Positions 961-9,947 of a stretch of 48,216 nucleotides of DNA are shown piece by piece. Source of the DNA: Euzebya sp. (lineage in GTDB: Bacteria; Actinomycetota; Nitriliruptoria; Euzebyales; Euzebyaceae); the NCBI RefSeq assembly GCF_964222135.1, contig NZ_CAXQBR010000078.1, forward strand, positions 1 to 48,216, read 5' to 3'. Positions within the stretch are counted from its first letter, which is position 1. Every line of letters starts with the position of its first letter. Position numbers and translations under genes: made by a program. The notes beneath the pieces were generated by a model. It searched no databases. It saw only the letters and a program-made list of their open reading frames with translations, and was not told the origin of the DNA.

Positions 961-1778
961 CCGTCTTCCTCGATGCCCTCCGCGAGGCCCGCAGCCGGAA
1001 GATCCTCGCCGTCGGGATCGTCGTCAGCCTCCTCTTCATCGCGCTGTTCTGGCTGGCGTACTCGATCGGGTTCTCCCGCCTCGAGACCGACAACCCCCAG
1101 GACCGCGCGATCGCCGCGACCGCGATGACCGTCCTCGGCCTGTACGCGGTGCAGTTCCTCGCCGCCTTCCTCGCGATCCTGCTGTCGACCGGCGCGATCG
1201 CCGCGGAGGTCGACTCCGGCCGGGCCCTGTCGATCCTGGCCCGCCCGGTGCCGCGCTGGTCCTGGCTGGTCCAGCGCACGGCCGCGTTCGGCAGCCTGGT
1301 GGTCGCCTACGTCGTGGTGATGGTCATCGCCGTCCTCACGATCGCCGCCGGCATCGGCGGGTTCTCGGCGTTGGACCCCGGCCGGGCCATCGCCCTGCTG
1401 ATCGCCGAGGTCGTCTTCCTCATCGCCGCCGGGGTGTGCCTGTCGACGCGGCTGTCCGCCATCGCCGCCGGCGTGGTGGTCGTCGTCGCCTACGGCCTCG
1501 CCTGGCTGGCCGGGATCATCGAGTTCGTCGCGGCCACCCTCGACAACCAGTCGCTCGAGCGCGTTGGCATCGCCATCTCGCTGGTGATCCCGAGCGACGC
1601 CCTGTGGCGCAGCGCCTCGTACTACCTGCAGTCGCCCGCGCTGCTCGCGGCCGGGGACTTCGGGCTCCCGTTCGCCTCGACGGATCCGCCGAGCGGCTGG
1701 CTGGTCCTCTGGGGCCTCGTCTACATCGCGCTGCTCGCCGCCGCAGCGATCTGGTCCTTCCGCCGACGCGACCTGTAG
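957..1778 (+). CDS. ABC-2 family transporter permease
   Basis: This 273-aa integral membrane partner of the preceding ATPase has about six hydrophobic segments, spread through residues 18-40, 60-85, 110-140, 145-165, 175-200 and 245-265. The SGAIAAEVDSGRALSILARP stretch after the second segment is the amphipathic loop seen in ABC-2 permeases of the NatB/NosY type, thought to contact the ATPase. The ATG start overlaps the ATPase stop (ATGA), which fixes the start. The protein ends on a short basic tail (SFRRRDL), as is common for the last cytoplasmic residues. With one ATPase and one permease, the working unit is probably a homodimeric permease with two ATPases. A drug, lipid or ion exporter are all possible. 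Confidence 0.88.
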
Positions 1779-1825
1779 CCCCTCGAACGGGGTGCGTGCG
1801 GGACCGCCGGGTTGGGGACGGTAGG

Positions 1826-2539
1826 ATGAATTCGAACGACTCCGAAAGGCCCGACGTGCAGGTCCGCTTCTACTTCGACCCCCTCTGCCCGTGGTGCTGG
1901 ATCACCAGCTTCTGGCTCGACGAGGTCGCCCCGCACCGAGACCTCGAGGTGGATTGGCGCTCGATCAGCCTGCTGGTCCGCAACGAAGGTCGGGACGTGG
2001 ACCCGGAGTACGCCGAGCGGTACCTGCCGGCCATGCAGCGCTCCTTCGGCCTGCTGCGCATCGTGGAGGCGCTCCGCGCCGACGGGCACGCCGACCGGAT
2101 CCGGGACGTGTACGTCGCCTTCGGCCGCCACTTCCACCAGCCCGACGCCGAGTCGGGCGAGGCGGGGCTCGACTTCGACATCGCCGAGGCGCTCCGGTCC
2201 GCCGGCGTCGACGACGGCTACGCGAAGGCCTACGACGACACCGCCTACGACGCCGCGGTCCGCGCTTCCACGCGCGAGGCGGAGGAGGTGGCCGGCGACG
2301 ACGTCGGCACGCCGATCGTGGCCGTCCAGGTCGGCGACGAGTGGAAGGGCTACTTCGGGCCCGTCATCCCGTCGGTCATCCGCGGTGACGAGGCGCTGCG
2401 GCTGTGGGACGGTCTGGCCGCGCTGGTGCAGACCGAGGGCTTCTACGAGCTGAAGCGCACCCGCACCGTCGGCCCGCAGCTCGAGACCGTGCCCTTGGAC
2501 CAGCGCCGTCCCGCTGGACCAGGTCGGCAGTCGGACTAG
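1826..2539 (+). CDS. DsbA-like CPWC protein, mycothiol-dependent nitroreductase (Rv2466c) family
   Basis: This 237-aa thioredoxin-fold protein has the active-site motif Cys21-Pro-Trp-Cys24 right after the first beta strand (FYFDPLCPWCWITSFWL). The FDPLCPWCWxTS signature is that of the actinobacterial Rv2466c family. Those proteins use mycothiol to reduce their disulfide and can reduce nitro compounds under oxidative stress. The helical insertion (residues about 60-150) and the cis-Pro loop GTPIVAVQ near residue 160 fit the DsbA/FrnE fold. No signal peptide is present, so it should act in the cytoplasm. The ATG at 1826 was chosen because it starts just before the first strand; upstream in-frame codons run inside the permease gene. 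It sits 47 bp after the permease and probably has its own promoter. Mycothiol dependence is inferred from the family. Confidence 0.85.
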   Translation: MNSNDSERPDVQVRFYFDPLCPWCWITSFWLDEVAPHRDLEVDWRSISLLVRNEGRDVDPEYAERYLPAMQRSFGLLRIVEALRADGHADRIRDVYVAFGRHFHQPDAESGEAGLDFDIAEALRSAGVDDGYAKAYDDTAYDAAVRASTREAEEVAGDDVGTPIVAVQVGDEWKGYFGPVIPSVIRGDEALRLWDGLAALVQTEGFYELKRTRTVGPQLETVPLDQRRPAGPGRQSD

Positions 2540-2601
2540 ACCGGACGGGTCATCCGCGGACCTCCTTCAGATCGCCATCCACCCCGCCGATGACGTAGGG
2601 G

Positions 2602-5253
2602 ATGGAGGGTCAGGTGGAGGAGTCGGTCGACGCCCGGTTGGCGCGGGCCTTCCTCGCCGCGCCGAACGGGATGATCGTCGTCGACCGCGACGGCGTGATC
2701 GTCGCGACCAACCGCCGGGCGGCGGAGTTCATGCGCTGCCACGGCCAGGACCTCCTCGGCAACCTCGCACGGGACATGGTCGACCCCGCCGACCTCGCTC
2801 GGAACCTGCCCGCGATGAGCCGCCTGTGGCGCGAGCCCGGGGCGACCGTGACGATGCAGATGGCGTTGCGGGATGTCGACGGCAACCGGCTGCCCGCCGA
2901 GATCAAGGCCAGCCACGACCCCGTGAGCGGCGACGTGGTCATGTACATCGAGGACCTCCACGACCGCCTCCAGGTCCAGGCGCGCCTCGAGACCCTCAGC
3001 CGCTACGACGCCATCACCGGCCTGCCGAACCGGCGCAGCATCCTGGACCAGATCGGCCACCACCTCGCCGACGCGTCACCGGCACGGCCCTGCGCGGTGC
3101 TCGCCGTCGACGTGGACCGCTTCCAGGCCGTCAACGACCTGTTCGGGCAGGAAGCCGGCGACTGGGTCCTCGCCACCCTCGGCGAGCGGCTCGGATCCGT
3201 CGTCGGCCACGCGGACGTCGGCAGGCTCGGCGCGGACGAGTTCGTGGCGGTGGTCCCCGACGTCCCCGACGCCGCCGCCGCGTTCGCGATCGCCCGGCAG
3301 CTGCAGGACGCGGCGTCGCAGGGGATGTCGCGCAACGGCGTCCCGCTCCGCCTGACCGTGACCGTCGGGATCGCCCTCGCCGGCGAGCCGGTGGACCCGG
3401 CCTCGCTGATCCAGCGGGCGGAGATCGCGCTGCACCGCGCCCGCGCCGCCGGGCGGTCCGCCGACCTCGCCGAGAGCGCCGACGTCGCCGAAGCCGTGCG
3501 CGACCTCCGCCTCGAGACCGCTCTGCAGGCGGCGGTCCACGACGACGACCTCGACGTCGCCTTCCAGCCCCTGATCGACATGGCCGGTGAGGTCGTCGCG
3601 GTCGAGGCGCTCGTCCGCTGGCCTGGCAGCGGCGTCTCGGCCGGGCAGATCATCGAGGCCGGCGAGCGCGCGGCGCTGATCGTGCGGGTGGGGGAGTGGG
3701 TGCTCGACCACGCCCTCGCCGCCCTGCCGGCGCTGTCCGCCGCGGCCGGGCGTGACCTGCGGTTGAACATCAACTGGTCCACCCGGCAGCTGAACCGGGG
3801 CGGGCTGGTCGAGACGATCCGGACGGCATGTGACCGCCATGGGCTCGACCCCTCGCGGGTGTGCGTGGAGCTGACCGAGACCGCCGCCATGCTCGACCAG
3901 GCCGCCACCGTGCAGACGCTCCGGGACCTGGCCGCGCTCGGCGTCCGGGTCGCCGTCGACGACTTCGGGATGGGCTACTCCTCGTTCGCCTACCTGCGGG
4001 ACCTGCCCGTCGACGAGGTCAAGCTCGACCGCACCTTCGTGCAGCGGGCCGGCACGGACGCCTCGGCCGCCGACGTGCTGGACGGGATGAGCCGGCTTTG
4101 CCGCGGCCTCGGGCTCGACGTCGTCGGGGAGGGGGTCGAGAACTCCCACGAGCTCGAGCTCGTCCGCAACGCCGGCTGCACCTACTGGCAGGGCTACCTG
4201 GGCGCCCGTCCGATGGCGGCCTCGGAGCTGGTCGAGAAGCTCGCCGCCTGGCCGGACCGGATGGGCTTCGCGCTCGGCTCCGACGAGGACGCCGCTGCCG
4301 CCGACGCGGACGAGCGCGACGTCCTGCAGGCCGTCCGCGGTCTGCTGCGCTACGACGGCAGCGACGTGGCGGGGGCGTTGGCACACCTGCTCGCGGTGCT
4401 CGTCGACGCGCTCGGGTGCGACGTCGGCGTGGCGTGGACGGCCGAGACGGGCGCGGTCGGCCACGGCCTCGCGGTCACCGACGCCGTCGGTGCGGCTCTG
4501 GCCCGGAGCGTCAGCCGGGGCGGCCAATGCGTCCAGCACGCGGTCGCCGACGACCTGCCCGGCGACCTGGTCCGGCGTGCCGGCATCCGCTCGTGGTTCG
4601 CCCTGCCCCTCCACGGCCGTGACGGCGCGGTGCTGGTCGCCCACACCGGCGACCGGGACTTCAGCGGCATCGCCCAGCGCCTCGCCAGGACCGTGCTCGA
4701 GTCGAGCGACGTGCTGTTCAACTCCGCGTCGGCGAAGGAGCGGCTGCGCCGCGAGGCGGCCCAGGCGGCCACCGAGGCGCGCACCGACGGGCTGACCGGG
4801 TTGTTGAACCGGACGGGGTGGGAGGAGGCCGTCGACCACCGGCGTCAGGTCCCCGCCCCCACCGGTGTGGTCATCTGCGACGCGAACGGCTTCAAGGCGC
4901 TGAACGACACGCTCGGCCACGCCTCGGGTGACCGGCTGCTGCGCCGCATCGCCGGCCAGATCGCCCGGTGCACCCCTCCCGGCGGGGTCTCCGCGCGCCT
5001 CGGCGGGGACGAGTTCGGCGTCCTGGTGCCCGGCGCGGCCGACGACGTGCTCGCCGGTCTGGCCCACCGCCTGCGGGAGGCGCTGACCATGACCGTCCCC
5101 GAGACCGGCGGCACGGCGACGGTCGCGGTCGGGACCGCGCTGGCCATCGCCGGGGACGACGTGGACGCGGCGATCGTGCGGGCGGACGCGGCGATGTACG
5201 CCGCCAAGGCGAGCCGGGGCCCACGGTCCCGGCGGGTGGGGTCGGCCGGGTGA
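2602..5253 (+). CDS. PAS-GGDEF-EAL-GAF-GGDEF c-di-GMP turnover protein (copy 1)
   Basis: This 883-aa soluble signalling protein probably makes and/or degrades cyclic di-GMP. Domains in order: PAS (about 10-117); a first GGDEF (about 132-290) whose signature is degenerate, RLGADEF; an EAL phosphodiesterase domain (about 300-550) that keeps EALVRW, NINWSTRQL, ELTETAA, DDFGMGYSS, VKLDR, GEGVEN and WQGY, so it looks active; a short GAF-like sensor (about 571-715); and a second GGDEF (about 728-880) with an intact ARLGGDEFG. No RxxD inhibitory site is visible before the second signature. No membrane segment is visible. The ATG at 2602 has little room for a ribosome site; an in-frame GTG at 2614 preceded by GGAGGG is an alternative start. 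The next gene is a paralogue overlapping by 4 bp. Confidence 0.92.
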   Translation: MEGQVEESVDARLARAFLAAPNGMIVVDRDGVIVATNRRAAEFMRCHGQDLLGNLARDMVDPADLARNLPAMSRLWREPGATVTMQMALRDVDGNRLPAEIKASHDPVSGDVVMYIEDLHDRLQVQARLETLSRYDAITGLPNRRSILDQIGHHLADASPARPCAVLAVDVDRFQAVNDLFGQEAGDWVLATLGERLGSVVGHADVGRLGADEFVAVVPDVPDAAAAFAIARQLQDAASQGMSRNGVPLRLTVTVGIALAGEPVDPASLIQRAEIALHRARAAGRSADLAESADVAEAVRDLRLETALQAAVHDDDLDVAFQPLIDMAGEVVAVEALVRWPGSGVSAGQIIEAGERAALIVRVGEWVLDHALAALPALSAAAGRDLRLNINWSTRQLNRGGLVETIRTACDRHGLDPSRVCVELTETAAMLDQAATVQTLRDLAALGVRVAVDDFGMGYSSFAYLRDLPVDEVKLDRTFVQRAGTDASAADVLDGMSRLCRGLGLDVVGEGVENSHELELVRNAGCTYWQGYLGARPMAASELVEKLAAWPDRMGFALGSDEDAAAADADERDVLQAVRGLLRYDGSDVAGALAHLLAVLVDALGCDVGVAWTAETGAVGHGLAVTDAVGAALARSVSRGGQCVQHAVADDLPGDLVRRAGIRSWFALPLHGRDGAVLVAHTGDRDFSGIAQRLARTVLESSDVLFNSASAKERLRREAAQAATEARTDGLTGLLNRTGWEEAVDHRRQVPAPTGVVICDANGFKALNDTLGHASGDRLLRRIAGQIARCTPPGGVSARLGGDEFGVLVPGAADDVLAGLAHRLREALTMTVPETGGTATVAVGTALAIAGDDVDAAIVRADAAMYAAKASRGPRSRRVGSAG

Positions 5254-8200
5254 CGGTGGGTCGGGTGACGACGGGTCGGGCCACCCCGGGCCGCTCCCGC
5301 GCCGAGGCGCGACTCGCCGGCGTGCTCGACGCCGTGCCGGGTGGCATCGCCGTCCTCGACGCGAGCGGGGTGATCCTCGAGGTGAACGCCGCGCTGGCGA
5401 CCCTCGCCGGTCTGGAGGCCGCTGACCTGGTCGGCCGCAACGGGATCGAGCTGGTCGACCCCGGCGACCTCGACCAGCACCGCCGCAGCATGTGGCGGCT
5501 GTGGCGCGTCCCGGGCGCCTCGGCGACCATGCACATCGGCCTGCGGCGCGCCGACGGGACCGCCATCCCGGTGTCGGTGACCGGTGCGGCGGTCTCGGGC
5601 GACCACGACGCCGATGTCGTCCTCTACGTCGAGGACCAGCGCGACGCCATGGCCGCCGAGGCGCGGGTCGACTACCTGTCCCGCATCGACACCGTCACCG
5701 GGCTGCTCAACCGCCGCACCGTCACCGGGCGGATCGGCACCGCGCTGCGCGCCGCCGACGGCACGGCCCACGTCGCGGTGGTGGTCGTCGACCTGGACCG
5801 CTTCCAGACCGTCAACGACCGGTTGGGCCACACCTTCGGCGACCACGTCCTCTCCACCGTCGCGGCCCGCATGACCGAGGTCTGCGCCGACTCGGAGGTC
5901 TGTGGGAACTCGGCCACCGTCGGGCGGCTCGGCGCCGACGAGTTCGTCGTCGTGGTCGCGCGCGCCGGCGACGTCGACGGGCTCCTCGCCACCGCGCGAG
6001 CCATCCGCCGATCGATCGCCGAGCCGATCCACGCCGGGGACGAGTCGATCCACCTCACCGCGACGGTCGGCATCGCCGTCGAGGCCAACCCGGACGCCCA
6101 CGCCGAGGCGCTCGTGCAACGGGCCGTCATCGCGCTGCACGGCGCCCGCGCCGCCGGTCGGACCGTCGACGTCGCCGACGAGGGCGACGCCCGCGCCGTG
6201 GTCGCCCAGCTCGAGGTCGAGGCCGCCGTGTCCGTCGCGATCCACGACGACGGGCTGTACGTGGTCTTCCAGCCGATCTACGACGCCGCCGACCGCCCGG
6301 TCGCCGTCGAGGCGCTGGTCCGCGCCCACGACGACGCGATCTCCGCCGCCGACATCGTCGCCGCGGCGGAGCGGTCGTCGCTGATACTCGACCTCGGCCG
6401 CGTGGTCCTCGACCAGGCGCTCGCCGCCATGCCGACCCTGGACGCCGCCGCCGGCCGCCCCCTGCAGCTGAACGTCAACCTCTCGGCCCGCCAGATCCAC
6501 GAGCCGACGATCGTCGAGCAGATCCTCGGCGCCGTCCGCCGCCACGGCTTCCCGCCGTCCCAGCTGTGCGTCGAGCTGACCGAGACCGCGGCCATGTCGG
6601 ACCCCACCGCCACCATCGAGGCGCTGTCGGCCCTGCGGCGCGCGGGCGTGTCGATCGCCATCGACGACTTCGGGGCCGGCTACTCGTCGTTCAGCTACCT
6701 CCGCGACCTCCCGGTCGACCGCGTGAAGGTGGACCAGGCGTTCCTCCACCGGGCCGGCGAGGACGCGGCCGCCCGCCAGGTCCTCGAGGGGATGGTCGGG
6801 CTGTGCGCCGGCCTCGGCCTCGAGAGCGTCTGCGAGGGCGTCGAGAACACCCACCAGCGCGACGTGGCCATCGCGGCCGGCGCGACCGGCTGGCAGGGCT
6901 ACCTCGGCTCCCGCCCGCTGCCCGCCGACGAGCTGGCCGCGGTGCTCGTGGCGTCCGGGGGCGCCGAGGACCCGCTGCCCGCCGACGAGCCGGACCAGGT
7001 CGCGGACCTGCTGGCCGATCTCGGCATGGTCGACCTGCTGGTGTTCCGGCGCCTGGGGGAGGGACGGTACGCCCACCTGGGAGGGGTGGGTCGCGGGGCC
7101 GGCTGGGCCGGCGTGGTCGAGATCGACCTCGCCGCGGAGACCTTCGTCGCCGGGGCGCTCGGGCGCAGCGACCGGGTGTTCATCTCCTCGAGCGAACCGG
7201 TCCGCGTCGTCGGGCCGTACTACGCCACCACGAGCCTGGTCGTGGCGACCGACGACGCGCTGGTCGTCCTCGGCCACCCCGACGAGGCCAGACCCCTCGA
7301 CCGCGGCGACCCCCGGGTGGACCGGCGGGGCGCCGCGGCGCTGGCCGAGATCGTCGAGGTGTCCCCCGCCAAGCCCCTCGCCGACGAGCTCGAGGTGCTC
7401 GAAGCGGTCCAGGAGCTCCTCCGCTTCGACGGCGCGGACCTCGGCGAGGCGCTCGCCCACCTGCTGGCTGTCACCTGCGACGCGCTCGGCTGCGACGTCG
7501 GGTTCGCCTGCCTGCCAGACGTGGGCGTCGTCCGGTTCGGCGTCGCCGACGACGTGGACGTGTCGGGCTGCAGCGAGCTCGGCGACGCGCCCCGCTGCCT
7601 GCAGTACGCCGCCGAGGACGACCTGCCCGGCGGCCTGGTCCCGCGCCTCGGCATCCGGTCCTGGTACCTCCTCCCGTTGCACGGCGGGCGGGGCCGCATG
7701 CTCGTCGCCCACACCGCCGACAGCCCGCGGGGCTTCACCGGGTTGTGCCAGCGGGTCGGCCGGACCCTCGCCGAGTCGAGCGACGTGCTGTTCCGCGCCG
7801 CGCAGGCCCGGGAGGAGCTGACCCGGCAGGTGGACCAGGCGGCGTCAGAGGCCCGGACCGATGCGCTGACCGGGCTCGCCAACCGGCTGGGGTGGGACGA
7901 GGCGGTGGAGGAGCTCGCCCACGGCCCCGGCGGGGTCGGCGTGCTGGTCGCGGACCTGGACCGGTTCAAGGAGCTGAACGACACCCACGGCCACGCCGAG
8001 GGGGACCGGGCGCTCAAGGTGGTCGCCAGGGTGCTCGCGGAGGCGGTCGCCGAGGTCGCGCCGTCGGGGGCGCTGGCGGCACGCATCGGCGGGGACGAGT
8101 TCGGCGTCGTGCTGCCGACCGAGGACCCCGTGGTGGTCGAGCAGCTGCGCAGGCGGGTGCGGGACCGGGTCGAGGCGGTCGACGCCGGCGTGTCCTGCAC

Positions 8201-8291
8201 CGTGGGGACGGCCTGGACCGAGGGGGGCGCCGGCCTCGAGGCCGCCCTGATCGCCGCCGATCGGGCGATGTACGCCGCGAAGTTGGGGTAG
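5250..8291 (+). CDS. PAS-GGDEF-EAL-sensor-GAF-GGDEF c-di-GMP turnover protein (copy 2)
   Basis: This 1013-aa paralogue of the preceding gene overlaps its stop as GTGA, so the two are coupled. Domains: PAS (about 20-135), a first GGDEF with degenerate RLGADEF (about 137-310), EAL (about 320-565) with EALVRA, NVNLSARQI, ELTETAA, DDFGAGYSS, VKVDQ, CEGVEN and WQGY. A segment of about 130 residues (566-700) absent from copy 1 follows, then the short GAF-like sensor (about 706-840) and an intact C-terminal GGDEF (ARIGGDEFG, near 945). The extra segment has alternating strands and helices and looks like another GAF-type sensor, but I cannot assign it. The frame is open far upstream inside copy 1; the GTG at 5250 is preferred because of the overlap, with GTGs at 5256 and 5265 as alternatives. 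Confidence 0.9.
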   Translation: MTVGRVTTGRATPGRSRAEARLAGVLDAVPGGIAVLDASGVILEVNAALATLAGLEAADLVGRNGIELVDPGDLDQHRRSMWRLWRVPGASATMHIGLRRADGTAIPVSVTGAAVSGDHDADVVLYVEDQRDAMAAEARVDYLSRIDTVTGLLNRRTVTGRIGTALRAADGTAHVAVVVVDLDRFQTVNDRLGHTFGDHVLSTVAARMTEVCADSEVCGNSATVGRLGADEFVVVVARAGDVDGLLATARAIRRSIAEPIHAGDESIHLTATVGIAVEANPDAHAEALVQRAVIALHGARAAGRTVDVADEGDARAVVAQLEVEAAVSVAIHDDGLYVVFQPIYDAADRPVAVEALVRAHDDAISAADIVAAAERSSLILDLGRVVLDQALAAMPTLDAAAGRPLQLNVNLSARQIHEPTIVEQILGAVRRHGFPPSQLCVELTETAAMSDPTATIEALSALRRAGVSIAIDDFGAGYSSFSYLRDLPVDRVKVDQAFLHRAGEDAAARQVLEGMVGLCAGLGLESVCEGVENTHQRDVAIAAGATGWQGYLGSRPLPADELAAVLVASGGAEDPLPADEPDQVADLLADLGMVDLLVFRRLGEGRYAHLGGVGRGAGWAGVVEIDLAAETFVAGALGRSDRVFISSSEPVRVVGPYYATTSLVVATDDALVVLGHPDEARPLDRGDPRVDRRGAAALAEIVEVSPAKPLADELEVLEAVQELLRFDGADLGEALAHLLAVTCDALGCDVGFACLPDVGVVRFGVADDVDVSGCSELGDAPRCLQYAAEDDLPGGLVPRLGIRSWYLLPLHGGRGRMLVAHTADSPRGFTGLCQRVGRTLAESSDVLFRAAQAREELTRQVDQAASEARTDALTGLANRLGWDEAVEELAHGPGGVGVLVADLDRFKELNDTHGHAEGDRALKVVARVLAEAVAEVAPSGALAARIGGDEFGVVLPTEDPVVVEQLRRRVRDRVEAVDAGVSCTVGTAWTEGGAGLEAALIAADRAMYAAKLG

Positions 8292-8321
8292 GCGCTCGCC
8301 GTCGGGTCGCCGGTGGTGGGT

Positions 8322-8524
8322 GACTGCACGTCGTCGGGCGGCCGGCGGTGGCCGACTGCACGGTGTCGGGTGGGCGGCCGCGGTCAGCTGCACGGTGTCG
8401 TGTGGTCGGCGGTGGCCGACTGCACGTCGTCCAGTGCACGGCGATGGCCGACTGCACGTCGTCCAGGACGGTCCCGGAGAGCGTGCAATCGCGCGGCCGA
8501 CCCAGCCAGACGACGTGCAGTCGG
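8322..8524 (+). repeat. Degenerate GGCCGACTGCACGTCGTC repeat array with an inverted copy
   Basis: The 528 bp between 8291 and 8820 contain no credible gene. They hold five direct copies of a motif close to GCGGTGGCCGACTGCACGTC: cores near 8322, 8351, 8384, 8417 and 8447, at intervals of roughly 29-33 bp. Copies 4 and 5 are the best conserved and copy 3 the worst. An inverted copy, GACGACGTGCAGTCGG, lies at 8509-8524 and can pair with the direct copies as a long hairpin. The array lies between the c-di-GMP genes and the 2-oxoacid dehydrogenase operon. It could be a terminator/processing region, a regulator-binding array or a degenerate minisatellite. Confidence 0.7.
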
Positions 8525-8819: not shown

Positions 8820-9947
8820 GTGAGCGACCCCTCAGGGCAGAGGCCCGACCCGACCGACCTGCTGCCGCCGCAGGAGCCGATCCAGATCCTGGACGACGAC
8901 GGCCACCTCCACGACGTGGAGGGCTACCCGATCGACGACCTGACCGACGACGACCTGCGGGACCTCTACCGGTACATGGTCGTCAGCCGGCGGATCGACA
9001 AGCAGGCGATCAACCTGCAGCGCCAGGGCCAGCTCGGCGTCTACGCGTCCCTGCTCGGCCAGGAGGCAGCCCAGGTCGGCGGGGCCTACGCCCTGCAGGA
9101 GCGCGACTGGGTGTTCCCCTCCTACCGCGAGATGGGCACCGCGATCGTCCGCGGCGTCGACCCGGGCAAGATCCTCCACCTCTTCCGCGGCACCTGGCTG
9201 AGCGACTACGACCCGTACGAGTTCAACTTCGGGCTGCTCAGCATCCCGATCGGCACCCAGGCCCTCCACGCCGCGGGGTTCGCGATGGGTGCGAAGTTCG
9301 ACGGCACGGACCTGGTGGTGATGGCGTACTTCGGGGACGGCGCGACCTCCGAGGGCGACCCGCACGAGGCGATGAACTTCGCCGCGGTCTACGACGCCCC
9401 GTGCGTCTTCTTCGTCCAGAACAACCAGTACGCGATCAGCGTCCCCCTCAGCCAGCAGACCAAGGCCCCGACGATCGCGCACAAGGCGGTCGGCTACGGC
9501 ATGCCGGGCTACCGCTGCGACGGCAACGACGTCCTCGCGACCTACGCGGTGACCAAGCAGGCGGTCGAGCGGGCCCGCCGCGGCGAGGGCCCCTCCCTCA
9601 TCGAGGCCGTCACCTACCGGATGGAGGCGCACACCACCGCCGACGACCCGACGCGCTACCGCACGCCGGAGGAGATGGCGGAGTGGCAGCGGCGCGACCC
9701 GATCGCCCGCTACGAGCGGTTCATCACCGAGCGCGGGCTGATGGACGCCGACCTGAAGGCGGCGATCGACGCCGACGTCGAGGAGCTGGCCGGCAAGATC
9801 CGCGAGGAGATCTACGACGCGCCGCACGGCGACCCCCTCGAGCTGTTCGACCACGTCTACGTCGACCCGATCCCCGACCACGAGGACCAGAAGGTGATGC
9901 TCAGGCGCGAGCTGGACGCGGCGGGCACCACCGGAGAGGAGGCGTAG
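8820..9947 (+). CDS. 2-oxoacid dehydrogenase E1 component, alpha subunit
   Basis: This 375-aa ThDP-dependent subunit decarboxylates a 2-oxoacid and passes the acyl group to lipoyl-E2. The ThDP/Mg motif starts at GDG (172-174), runs through SEGDPHEAMNFA, and ends at Asn201-Asn202 (VQNNQYAIS). The phosphorylation-loop-like region HTTADDPTRYR is conserved. The GTG at 8820 is preceded by AGGAGG at 8806-8811. It is the first gene of a tightly spaced operon (gaps of 4, 2 and 11 bp) with E1beta, E2 and E3. Actinobacteria usually carry out pyruvate oxidation with a homodimeric AceE, and this heterotetrameric E1 type often serves branched-chain 2-oxoacids. I therefore lean to a BkdA/PdhA-type branched-chain enzyme, but pyruvate cannot be excluded. 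Confidence 0.93.
   Translation: MSDPSGQRPDPTDLLPPQEPIQILDDDGHLHDVEGYPIDDLTDDDLRDLYRYMVVSRRIDKQAINLQRQGQLGVYASLLGQEAAQVGGAYALQERDWVFPSYREMGTAIVRGVDPGKILHLFRGTWLSDYDPYEFNFGLLSIPIGTQALHAAGFAMGAKFDGTDLVVMAYFGDGATSEGDPHEAMNFAAVYDAPCVFFVQNNQYAISVPLSQQTKAPTIAHKAVGYGMPGYRCDGNDVLATYAVTKQAVERARRGEGPSLIEAVTYRMEAHTTADDPTRYRTPEEMAEWQRRDPIARYERFITERGLMDADLKAAIDADVEELAGKIREEIYDAPHGDPLELFDHVYVDPIPDHEDQKVMLRRELDAAGTTGEEA

Follow-up and report, generated by a model that had tools for sequence, protein, structure and literature searches.

The window, the whole stretch of 48,216 nucleotides analysed here, corresponds to Euzebya sp. contig NZ_CAXQBR010000078.1 and carries on its forward strand two adjacent, related genes encoding c-di-GMP proteins. 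Copy 1 (2602..5253, +) encodes 883 amino acids in the order PAS-GADEF-EAL-GAF-GGDEF from an inferred start codon, with a GTG 12 bases further on as a possible alternative. Copy 2 (5250..8291, +) encodes 1013 amino acids in the order PAS-GADEF-EAL-X-GAF-GGDEF and most likely starts at an inferred GTG at 5250; its mechanically called open reading frame (ORF) begins at 4968, within copy 1. The genes join in an overlapping GTGA, where the GTG of copy 2 shares bases with the TGA of copy 1, and this overlap probably couples their translation. Both frames have a third-position GC of 96-97%, as for coding DNA of such a genome, the overall GC of both copies is similar to that of the window, and the long antisense ORFs across the pair appear to be high-GC shadows. 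Identity between the copies is 48% over PAS-GGDEF-EAL and 50% over GAF-GGDEF; by domain, it is highest in EAL (56%) and GAF (57%) and lowest in PAS and the GGDEFs (42-47%), the C-terminal GGDEF standing at 47%. An earlier note on this DNA had called the two ORFs tandem paralogues, which agrees with these results, its coordinates and frames being correct.

Pfam detected two GGDEF stretches (196-217 bits, cut-off 23.8), one EAL (199 and 201 bits, cut-off 31.3) and one N-terminal PAS in each copy. All domains lie on the forward strand. The PAS domains, whose ends are approximate, occupy 2632..2976 in copy 1 (PAS_4, PAS_8 and PAS above cut-off) and 5310..5639 in copy 2 (PF00989, 43 bits), and are followed by a first GGDEF (3001..3459 and 5685..6161, by Pfam and motif inspection) and an EAL (3520..4212 and 6225..6917, by Pfam and alignment). 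The GAF, delimited by alignment to the X-GAF family described below, spans 4303..4782 in copy 1, where X is missing, and 7368..7850 in copy 2, and the C-terminal GGDEF, delimited by motif inspection, spans 4780..5217 and 7851..8285. The GAF of copy 1 scored 15.4 bits, below the Pfam cut-off of 22.4, and that of copy 2 was unreported; the aligned GAF region of the homologue L039 reached 29.0 bits, above the cut-off, and the second sensor is therefore counted as a GAF by homology. Among the 25 listed of 28-29 NCBIfam families per copy, the general GGDEF and PAS-box models alone passed their cut-offs. The GGDEF-EAL-GAF-GGDEF order proposed earlier thus holds in both copies, with the addition of the N-terminal PAS, which had been overlooked.

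The eight positions that we take to be catalytic in EAL domains (E335, N391, E423, D453, D454, K474, E510 and Q530 in copy 1 numbering) are identical in both copies and align with their counterparts in 5m3c and 4rnh, two GGDEF-EAL proteins of solved structure; the metal and catalytic ligands being retained on alignment, both EAL domains indeed appear intact, as had been suggested. In both copies the first GGDEF carries GADEF instead of the GG(D/E)EF cyclase motif, and its description as degenerate was accurate. Both C-terminal domains, by contrast, retain GGDEF, the metal Asp, D-x-x-x-FKxLND and GHxxGD, and the claim of an intact motif behind a GAF-type sensor likewise stands at the level of sequence. 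The RxxD product-inhibition site (I-site), which is common in diguanylate cyclases although not required, is absent from all four GGDEFs of the pair; the C-terminal ones carry PPGG and PSGA at its place.

The likely consequence of the GADEF motif can be judged from published cases. According to a passage in PMC11575326, four V. fischeri cyclases had drastically weaker effects once Ala replaced the second Gly of their motif, two of the resulting motifs being exactly GADEF, and a passage in PMC3359988 reports that G287A in V. cholerae CdgA (again GADEF) abolished the tested effects; the wording in a passage of PMC12900916 is altered and/or lost activity. A passage in PMC12805831 still counts a Bordetella protein carrying GADEF among putative cyclases, so the motif does not prove that cyclase activity is dead.

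Copy 2 is longer than copy 1 by 130 residues, with an alignment gap at about residues 570-710 of copy 2. The extra segment of about 130 residues reported earlier is therefore present, yet it looks like an ancestral domain missing from copy 1, not like a later gain of copy 2. This segment, domain X (6993..7367, +), carries conserved GxGRGxGWAG and GPYY motifs and has no Pfam family at E<=1. Since Foldseek and VIA applied to the whole X-GAF-GGDEF model probed mainly the GGDEF, X was modelled separately, giving a pLDDT of 82. The best match of this model was the GAF 3o5y (Z 10.8, rmsd 3.8 Å over 120 residues), with holin T, LuxR-type, MYC3 and GATOR1 entries also listed; Foldseek returned no match to X alone at E<=0.001. 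X is a real domain, predicted to have a probable divergent GAF fold. The X-GAF profile found nothing better among solved chains than a histidine kinase at E 0.038, matched in the GAF part. X of copy 2 contains no cysteine, and the GAF has cysteine within a CxQ motif. For the X-GAF-GGDEF model, the top Foldseek matches were the bacteriophytochrome diguanylate cyclase IsPadC (5llw, 5llx and 6et7, E 1e-17 to 1e-20). Judged by the aligned ranges, X corresponds to what we take to be the GAF domain of IsPadC and GAF to its PHY domain; the whole-chain rmsd is 15.6-16.9 Å, with a different domain orientation, identity is about 20%, and no bilin-binding feature is shown for X-GAF.

The module is not confined to copy 2. 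The order contains six clear X-GAF relatives, and a search of genome contigs gave 16 X-GAF loci, 3 of them on the same contigs as three of the six. X precedes this GAF in all 16 loci, with the frame broken inside the module in L116 and L118. A GGDEF stands behind the module in 12 of the 16, none does in 3, and the contig ends in 1; X-GAF alone occurs in L111, L112 and L117. The X-GAF-GGDEF relatives, found in Actinomycetota and Chloroflexota (for example L036-L038, L040, L104, L105, L108, L113-L115 and L119), share the order of copy 2, and their aligned rows are 29-41% identical to it. Unlike the pair, they have no in-frame EAL, except for L103, an Ilumatobacteraceae MAG locus with EAL-X-GAF-GGDEF. 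The I-site is present in 10 of 12 scored family members having an intact GGDE[F/L] motif, and the GGDEF is decayed in L039 and L041. L103 retains the I-site, and among the GGDEF-EAL proteins of the Euzebya genome outside the pair it is missing from 12 of the 17 whose motif could be scored; the loss is thus not necessarily linked to fusion. Five further rows of the order search scored weakly. Three of them were taken as chance matches, L042 and L044 because they fall within or opposite genes of other kinds, L043 because its frame measures 93 codons.

The two copies are sisters in both halves. In the C-terminal tree (15 of 19 rows; L106, L111, L112 and L117 omitted as incomplete) their grouping has support 100/99. 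In the N-terminal tree, which contains the two copies and 19 of 28 paralogues from this one species (9 omitted as short or divergent), they are sisters among these paralogues with support 100/100, the bootstrap being unsettled. The C-terminal branch of copy 1 is longer than that of copy 2 (0.89 vs 0.35), which could reflect relaxed constraint. When the C-terminal half was compared with the whole genome, the two matches at E<=1e-30 were the copies themselves; a separate own-genome comparison of the copies covered EAL-bearing ORFs. The profiles were built from 28 of 30 loci for GGDEF (L077 has a stop and L087 is partial) and 30 of 30 for EAL. With the pair included, the 5.06 Mb genome has 51 GGDEF and 37 EAL matches, and among the 51 these two are the only ORFs with two GGDEFs. 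In the 29 other genomes of the order (<=31 candidates per genome scored), no full-length match to copy 1 was found at E<=1e-100, and in all three congeners dsbA and PDH E1 alpha adjoin without the pair. A mobile-element origin was set aside, with no X-GAF relative confirmed in viral contigs, no plasmid match of copy 2 at E<=1e-60 and a window-like GC.

Because X-GAF sits mostly in X-GAF-GGDEF cyclases, and X accompanies this GAF in every locus, copy 2 is most simply read as a PAS-GGDEF-EAL phosphodiesterase fused to an X-GAF-GGDEF cyclase, followed by tandem duplication and loss of X from copy 1. An insertion peculiar to copy 2 would be less simple, since X precedes the same GAF in 16/16 loci. 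Five other places hold related GAFs that match the profile but not its X part, and at a sixth, G002:C15, the match runs from inside X (<=35 candidates per genome scored); loss from copy 1 is thus the simplest history, not the only one.

The architecture had been considered uncommon. It is uncommon nearby, in the 29 genomes of the order and in the genome itself, but a characterised precedent exists in Cph2 of Synechocystis PCC 6803. As described in passages of PMC5812497, Cph2 has a sensor, a degenerate GGDEF that is most probably non-functional, an EAL active by complementation, a GAF (CBCR) and a C-terminal GGDEF that is a light-dependent cyclase, and thus resembles both copies in joining GGDEF-EAL-GAF-GGDEF in one chain with a degenerate first GGDEF. 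That text writes the layout with CBCR in place of GAF; the strings GGDEF-EAL-GAF-GGDEF, EAL-GAF-GGDEF, GGDEF-EAL-GGDEF and GGDEF-EAL-PAS-GGDEF were not found in the open-access literature searched. Cph2 differs from the pair in its N-terminal GAF-GAF phytochrome module, replaced here by a single PAS, in the bilin-binding GAF before its last GGDEF, where copy 2 has the tandem X-GAF with a cysteine-free X, and in that two overlapping genes are present here. To our knowledge, neither CC3396 of Caulobacter nor XOC_2335 of Xanthomonas has a second sensor-GGDEF unit at its C terminus. Both resemble the pair in having a degenerate GGDEF beside an EAL: in passages of PMC4823724, CC3396 carries an inactive GEDEF, which binds GTP and activates the adjoining EAL, and XOC_2335 has a natural GADEF and conserved EAL residues, both motifs being needed in vivo.

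Taken on motif state and comparison, each protein is probably, in our view, a bifunctional c-di-GMP enzyme composed of a phosphodiesterase unit A and a cyclase unit B, which would have arisen by fusion first and tandem duplication afterwards. In unit A (PAS-GGDEF-EAL), the PAS would sense a signal and the EAL would cleave c-di-GMP, and the GADEF domain, presumably no longer making c-di-GMP, would probably bind GTP and regulate the EAL. Unit B, GAF-GGDEF with or without X, would be a diguanylate cyclase switched by its GAF-type sensor; because it lacks the product-inhibition site, its output would be limited by the tethered EAL, not by feedback. Copy 2 keeps the full tandem sensor, and copy 1, having presumably lost X, would be expected to respond to a different cue or a simpler one.

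It is possible, though unlikely, that both proteins are net phosphodiesterases, with catalysis confined to the EAL and both GGDEFs serving to sense GTP or c-di-GMP or to hold the dimer together. GGDEF-EAL proteins usually have one active domain, in many cases even where both motifs look good (a passage in PMC11575326), conservation between the copies is higher in the EAL than in the second GGDEF (56% vs 47%), and the X-GAF-GGDEF relative of the congeners G001 and G002 has a GGDEF decayed to GVAEF. However, the C-terminal motif has stayed canonical in both copies despite 47% identity, which suggests use, and most scored relatives combine an intact motif with an I-site, as in ordinary cyclases. 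We find it very doubtful that the pair is a lineage-specific expansion with no special function and copy 1 degrading, even in a genome so rich in such proteins and with congeners lacking the pair at this place. Copy 1 does lack X and shows faster evolution in its C-terminal half, but both frames are open with coding-type third-position GC, and all eight EAL positions are kept; the copies have diverged to about 50% identity, so the duplication is no recent event, and since frames and EAL residues survived this divergence, both genes seem to be maintained. A two-gene switch, in which the proteins would form hetero-oligomers whose opposed activities, under the control of different inputs, give a bistable or toggling output, is highly improbable. 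Overlapping genes, the same architecture and the differential loss of one sensor domain would suit it, and PAS, GAF and GGDEF domains commonly dimerise; nevertheless, no evidence points to an interaction, to reciprocal gating or to positive feedback, the site for c-di-GMP feedback is missing from all four GGDEFs, and nothing seen in this analysis supports the bistable device that the earlier note had envisaged.

The most novel component of the finding is the X-GAF module, a sensor of a type that has been little described, which adds a domain that has no model in the Pfam copy used. We would advance as a speculative and rather unlikely extension that X-GAF is an unrecognised cyclase-controlling sensor module of Actinomycetota and Chloroflexota, arranged like phytochrome GAF-PHY with no bilin site, and here welded to a GTP-gated phosphodiesterase and duplicated into coupled, feedback-free two-way enzymes differing mainly in X. 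If this were true, two proteins would read one signal, each with a set point of its own. The pair also forms a natural experiment on joining synthesis and degradation units, as separate cyclase relatives exist, one sensor is missing in one copy and the I-site is lost from both; how opposed activities within one c-di-GMP protein avoid cancelling each other is thereby made directly testable.

The paralogous genes, both on the forward strand, are flanked upstream by a gene for a DsbA-type oxidoreductase, which ends at 2539, and downstream by a pyruvate dehydrogenase (PDH) E1 alpha gene at 8820, each named from its translation. Copy 1 occupies 2602-5253 (883 aa) and copy 2 extends to 8291 (1013 aa), with inferred start codons; the GTG at 5250, where copy 2 probably opens, overlaps the copy 1 TGA at 5251-5253. 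Pfam searches found PAS, GGDEF, EAL and a second GGDEF domain in each copy, and the two proteins could be aligned end to end, interrupted by a single long gap opposite residues ~570-710 of copy 2. This bears out the tandem paralogues with two GGDEF domains each described in the earlier note, and the gap corresponds to its extra segment of copy 2 (X).

To identify relatives of X, copy 2 residues 564-706 were searched against 30 genomes of the order, which gave, besides the window, five weak rows and six clear relatives. Each of the six encodes X-GAF-GGDEF in an open frame (446-591 codons), and two of them, the congener loci L039 and L041, end in a domain that has degenerated to GVAEF. A profile built from an alignment of seven X-GAF sequences recovered 16 loci in genome_contigs, three of them (L107, L109, L110) on the same contigs as three of the order relatives. 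X and GAF were present together at all 16 loci and were followed by GGDEF in 12; GGDEF was absent from L111, L112 and L117, and L118 is cut by a contig end. An EAL domain precedes X-GAF at a single locus of the 16 (L103, an Ilumatobacteraceae MAG). At the class level, at least 10 of 66 genomes matched at E<=1e-10, with the whole profile at no fewer than seven places, the window's included, and the GAF part only at five places beyond copy 1; the match on G002:C15, in a congener, starts inside X. In the phylum draw (best five candidates per genome), at least 11 of 396 genomes matched at E<=1e-25, and no open frame longer than 711 aa occurred outside the window among these matches. Since X and GAF occur together in the six relatives and at all 16 loci, X appears to belong to an older module, and it is copy 1 that has gone without it.

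Locus L119 is a further X-GAF-GGDEF, and L120-L122 carry X-GAF with no GGDEF in the same frame; by eye, the codons ahead of X-GAF in these three resemble the shadow of a different gene lying upstream, possibly one for a sensor kinase, which suggests that the module may feed outputs other than GGDEF. The X-GAF-GGDEF relatives at L045 (8994-10331) and L046 (9176-10540), in two congeners, end in a decayed GVAEF domain; genes for lipoamide dehydrogenase and a further E2 lie ~6 kb away. At L106, a separate GGDEF-bearing frame (1225-3918) stops shortly before an X-GAF-GGDEF gene begins (3930-5024), a neighbourhood that could give rise to fusions.

The copy 2 X-GAF-GGDEF model (mean pLDDT 88.7) had the phytochrome-activated cyclase IsPadC as its top Foldseek matches; in the aligned ranges X falls on the IsPadC GAF and the copy 2 GAF on its PHY, although whole-chain rmsd was 15.6-16.9 Å. 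Modelled alone, X (pLDDT 82; no cysteines) returned nothing at E 0.001 with Foldseek, and structure comparison gave a best Z of 10.8, with an rmsd of 3.8 Å over 120 residues. Most of the structural matches listed are GAF domains, by title or by their known classification, but holin T, LuxR-type and MYC3 chains also match at Z 8.5-9.5. On these models, X is probably a divergent GAF.

When 30 EAL-bearing loci of their own genome are compared, each copy has the other as its closest relative, in the N-terminal and C-terminal half alike. They are joined at 100/100 in an N-terminal-half tree of own-genome paralogues and at 100/99 in a C-terminal-half tree that includes relatives from other genomes; for the C-terminal half, no own-genome match beyond the copies reached E<=1e-30. 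Among the scored candidates in 29 other genomes of the order, none matched copy 1 over its whole length at E<=1e-100. In all three congeners dsbA and PDH E1 alpha are adjacent without the pair, ~0.3-1.2 kb apart, with small ORFs between them in two; in one (G003), a GGDEF-EAL gene with 33% identity to copy 1 lies ~9 kb off, outside this interval. The simplest history would be fusion, then tandem duplication, then loss of X from copy 1.

Eight EAL positions, taken as the catalytic ones, are retained in both copies, identical between them, and align with those of 5m3c and 4rnh, GGDEF-EAL proteins of solved structure, so the EAL domain does look intact, as first supposed. The motifs were also read correctly: the first GGDEF is GADEF in both copies, and the C-terminal one is canonical, with its DxxxF...ND and GxxxGD motifs. 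None of the four GGDEF domains has an RxxD I-site. Of 12 scored X-GAF family members whose GGDE[F/L] motif is intact, 10 have this site. But L103, likewise fused to EAL, has it too, and it is missing from 12 of 17 other own-genome GGDEF-EAL proteins with a scorable motif. In four V. fischeri cyclases, a change of the second motif Gly to Ala, as in the first GGDEF here, is reported to have drastically lowered their effects, giving exactly GADEF in two cases (PMC11575326); in V. cholerae CdgA it reportedly abolished the effects that were tested (PMC3359988). One Bordetella protein carrying GADEF nonetheless goes under the name of a putative cyclase (PMC12805831), which speaks against a flat verdict. 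Dead GGDEF domains can be regulatory: the GEDEF of CC3396 is described as binding GTP and activating its own EAL, and XOC_2335, which has a natural GADEF, as requiring both motifs (PMC4823724).

The N-terminal unit is probably a phosphodiesterase under PAS control, its first GGDEF catalytically dead and perhaps GTP-sensing, and the C-terminal unit a cyclase under GAF control. Synechocystis Cph2 has the same domain order; its first GGDEF is described as most probably non-functional, its EAL activity as shown by complementation, its CBCR-GGDEF part as active in a light-dependent manner and the role of its N-terminal photosensor as poorly understood (PMC5812497). By analogy with Cph2, each chain would set c-di-GMP by two cues.

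Across the 5.06 Mb genome, the pair included, 51 GGDEF matches (50 above the cut-off) and 37 EAL matches point to a rich c-di-GMP network. On G000:C107 (44958-47105, minus strand), a weak GGDEF and an EAL share a 633-codon frame, with a separate 300-codon GGDEF frame ~0.5 kb beyond, apparently like parts as unfused neighbours. Directly after copy 2, the window holds five 32-bp tandem repeats with the core CCGACTGCACGTCGTC (8300-8463) and an inverted core copy at 8509-8524. Allowing up to one mismatch, the core is present at 25 sites genome-wide, against 2 for the reversed control; several are again paired, 32 bases apart, and the repeats are a dispersed family.
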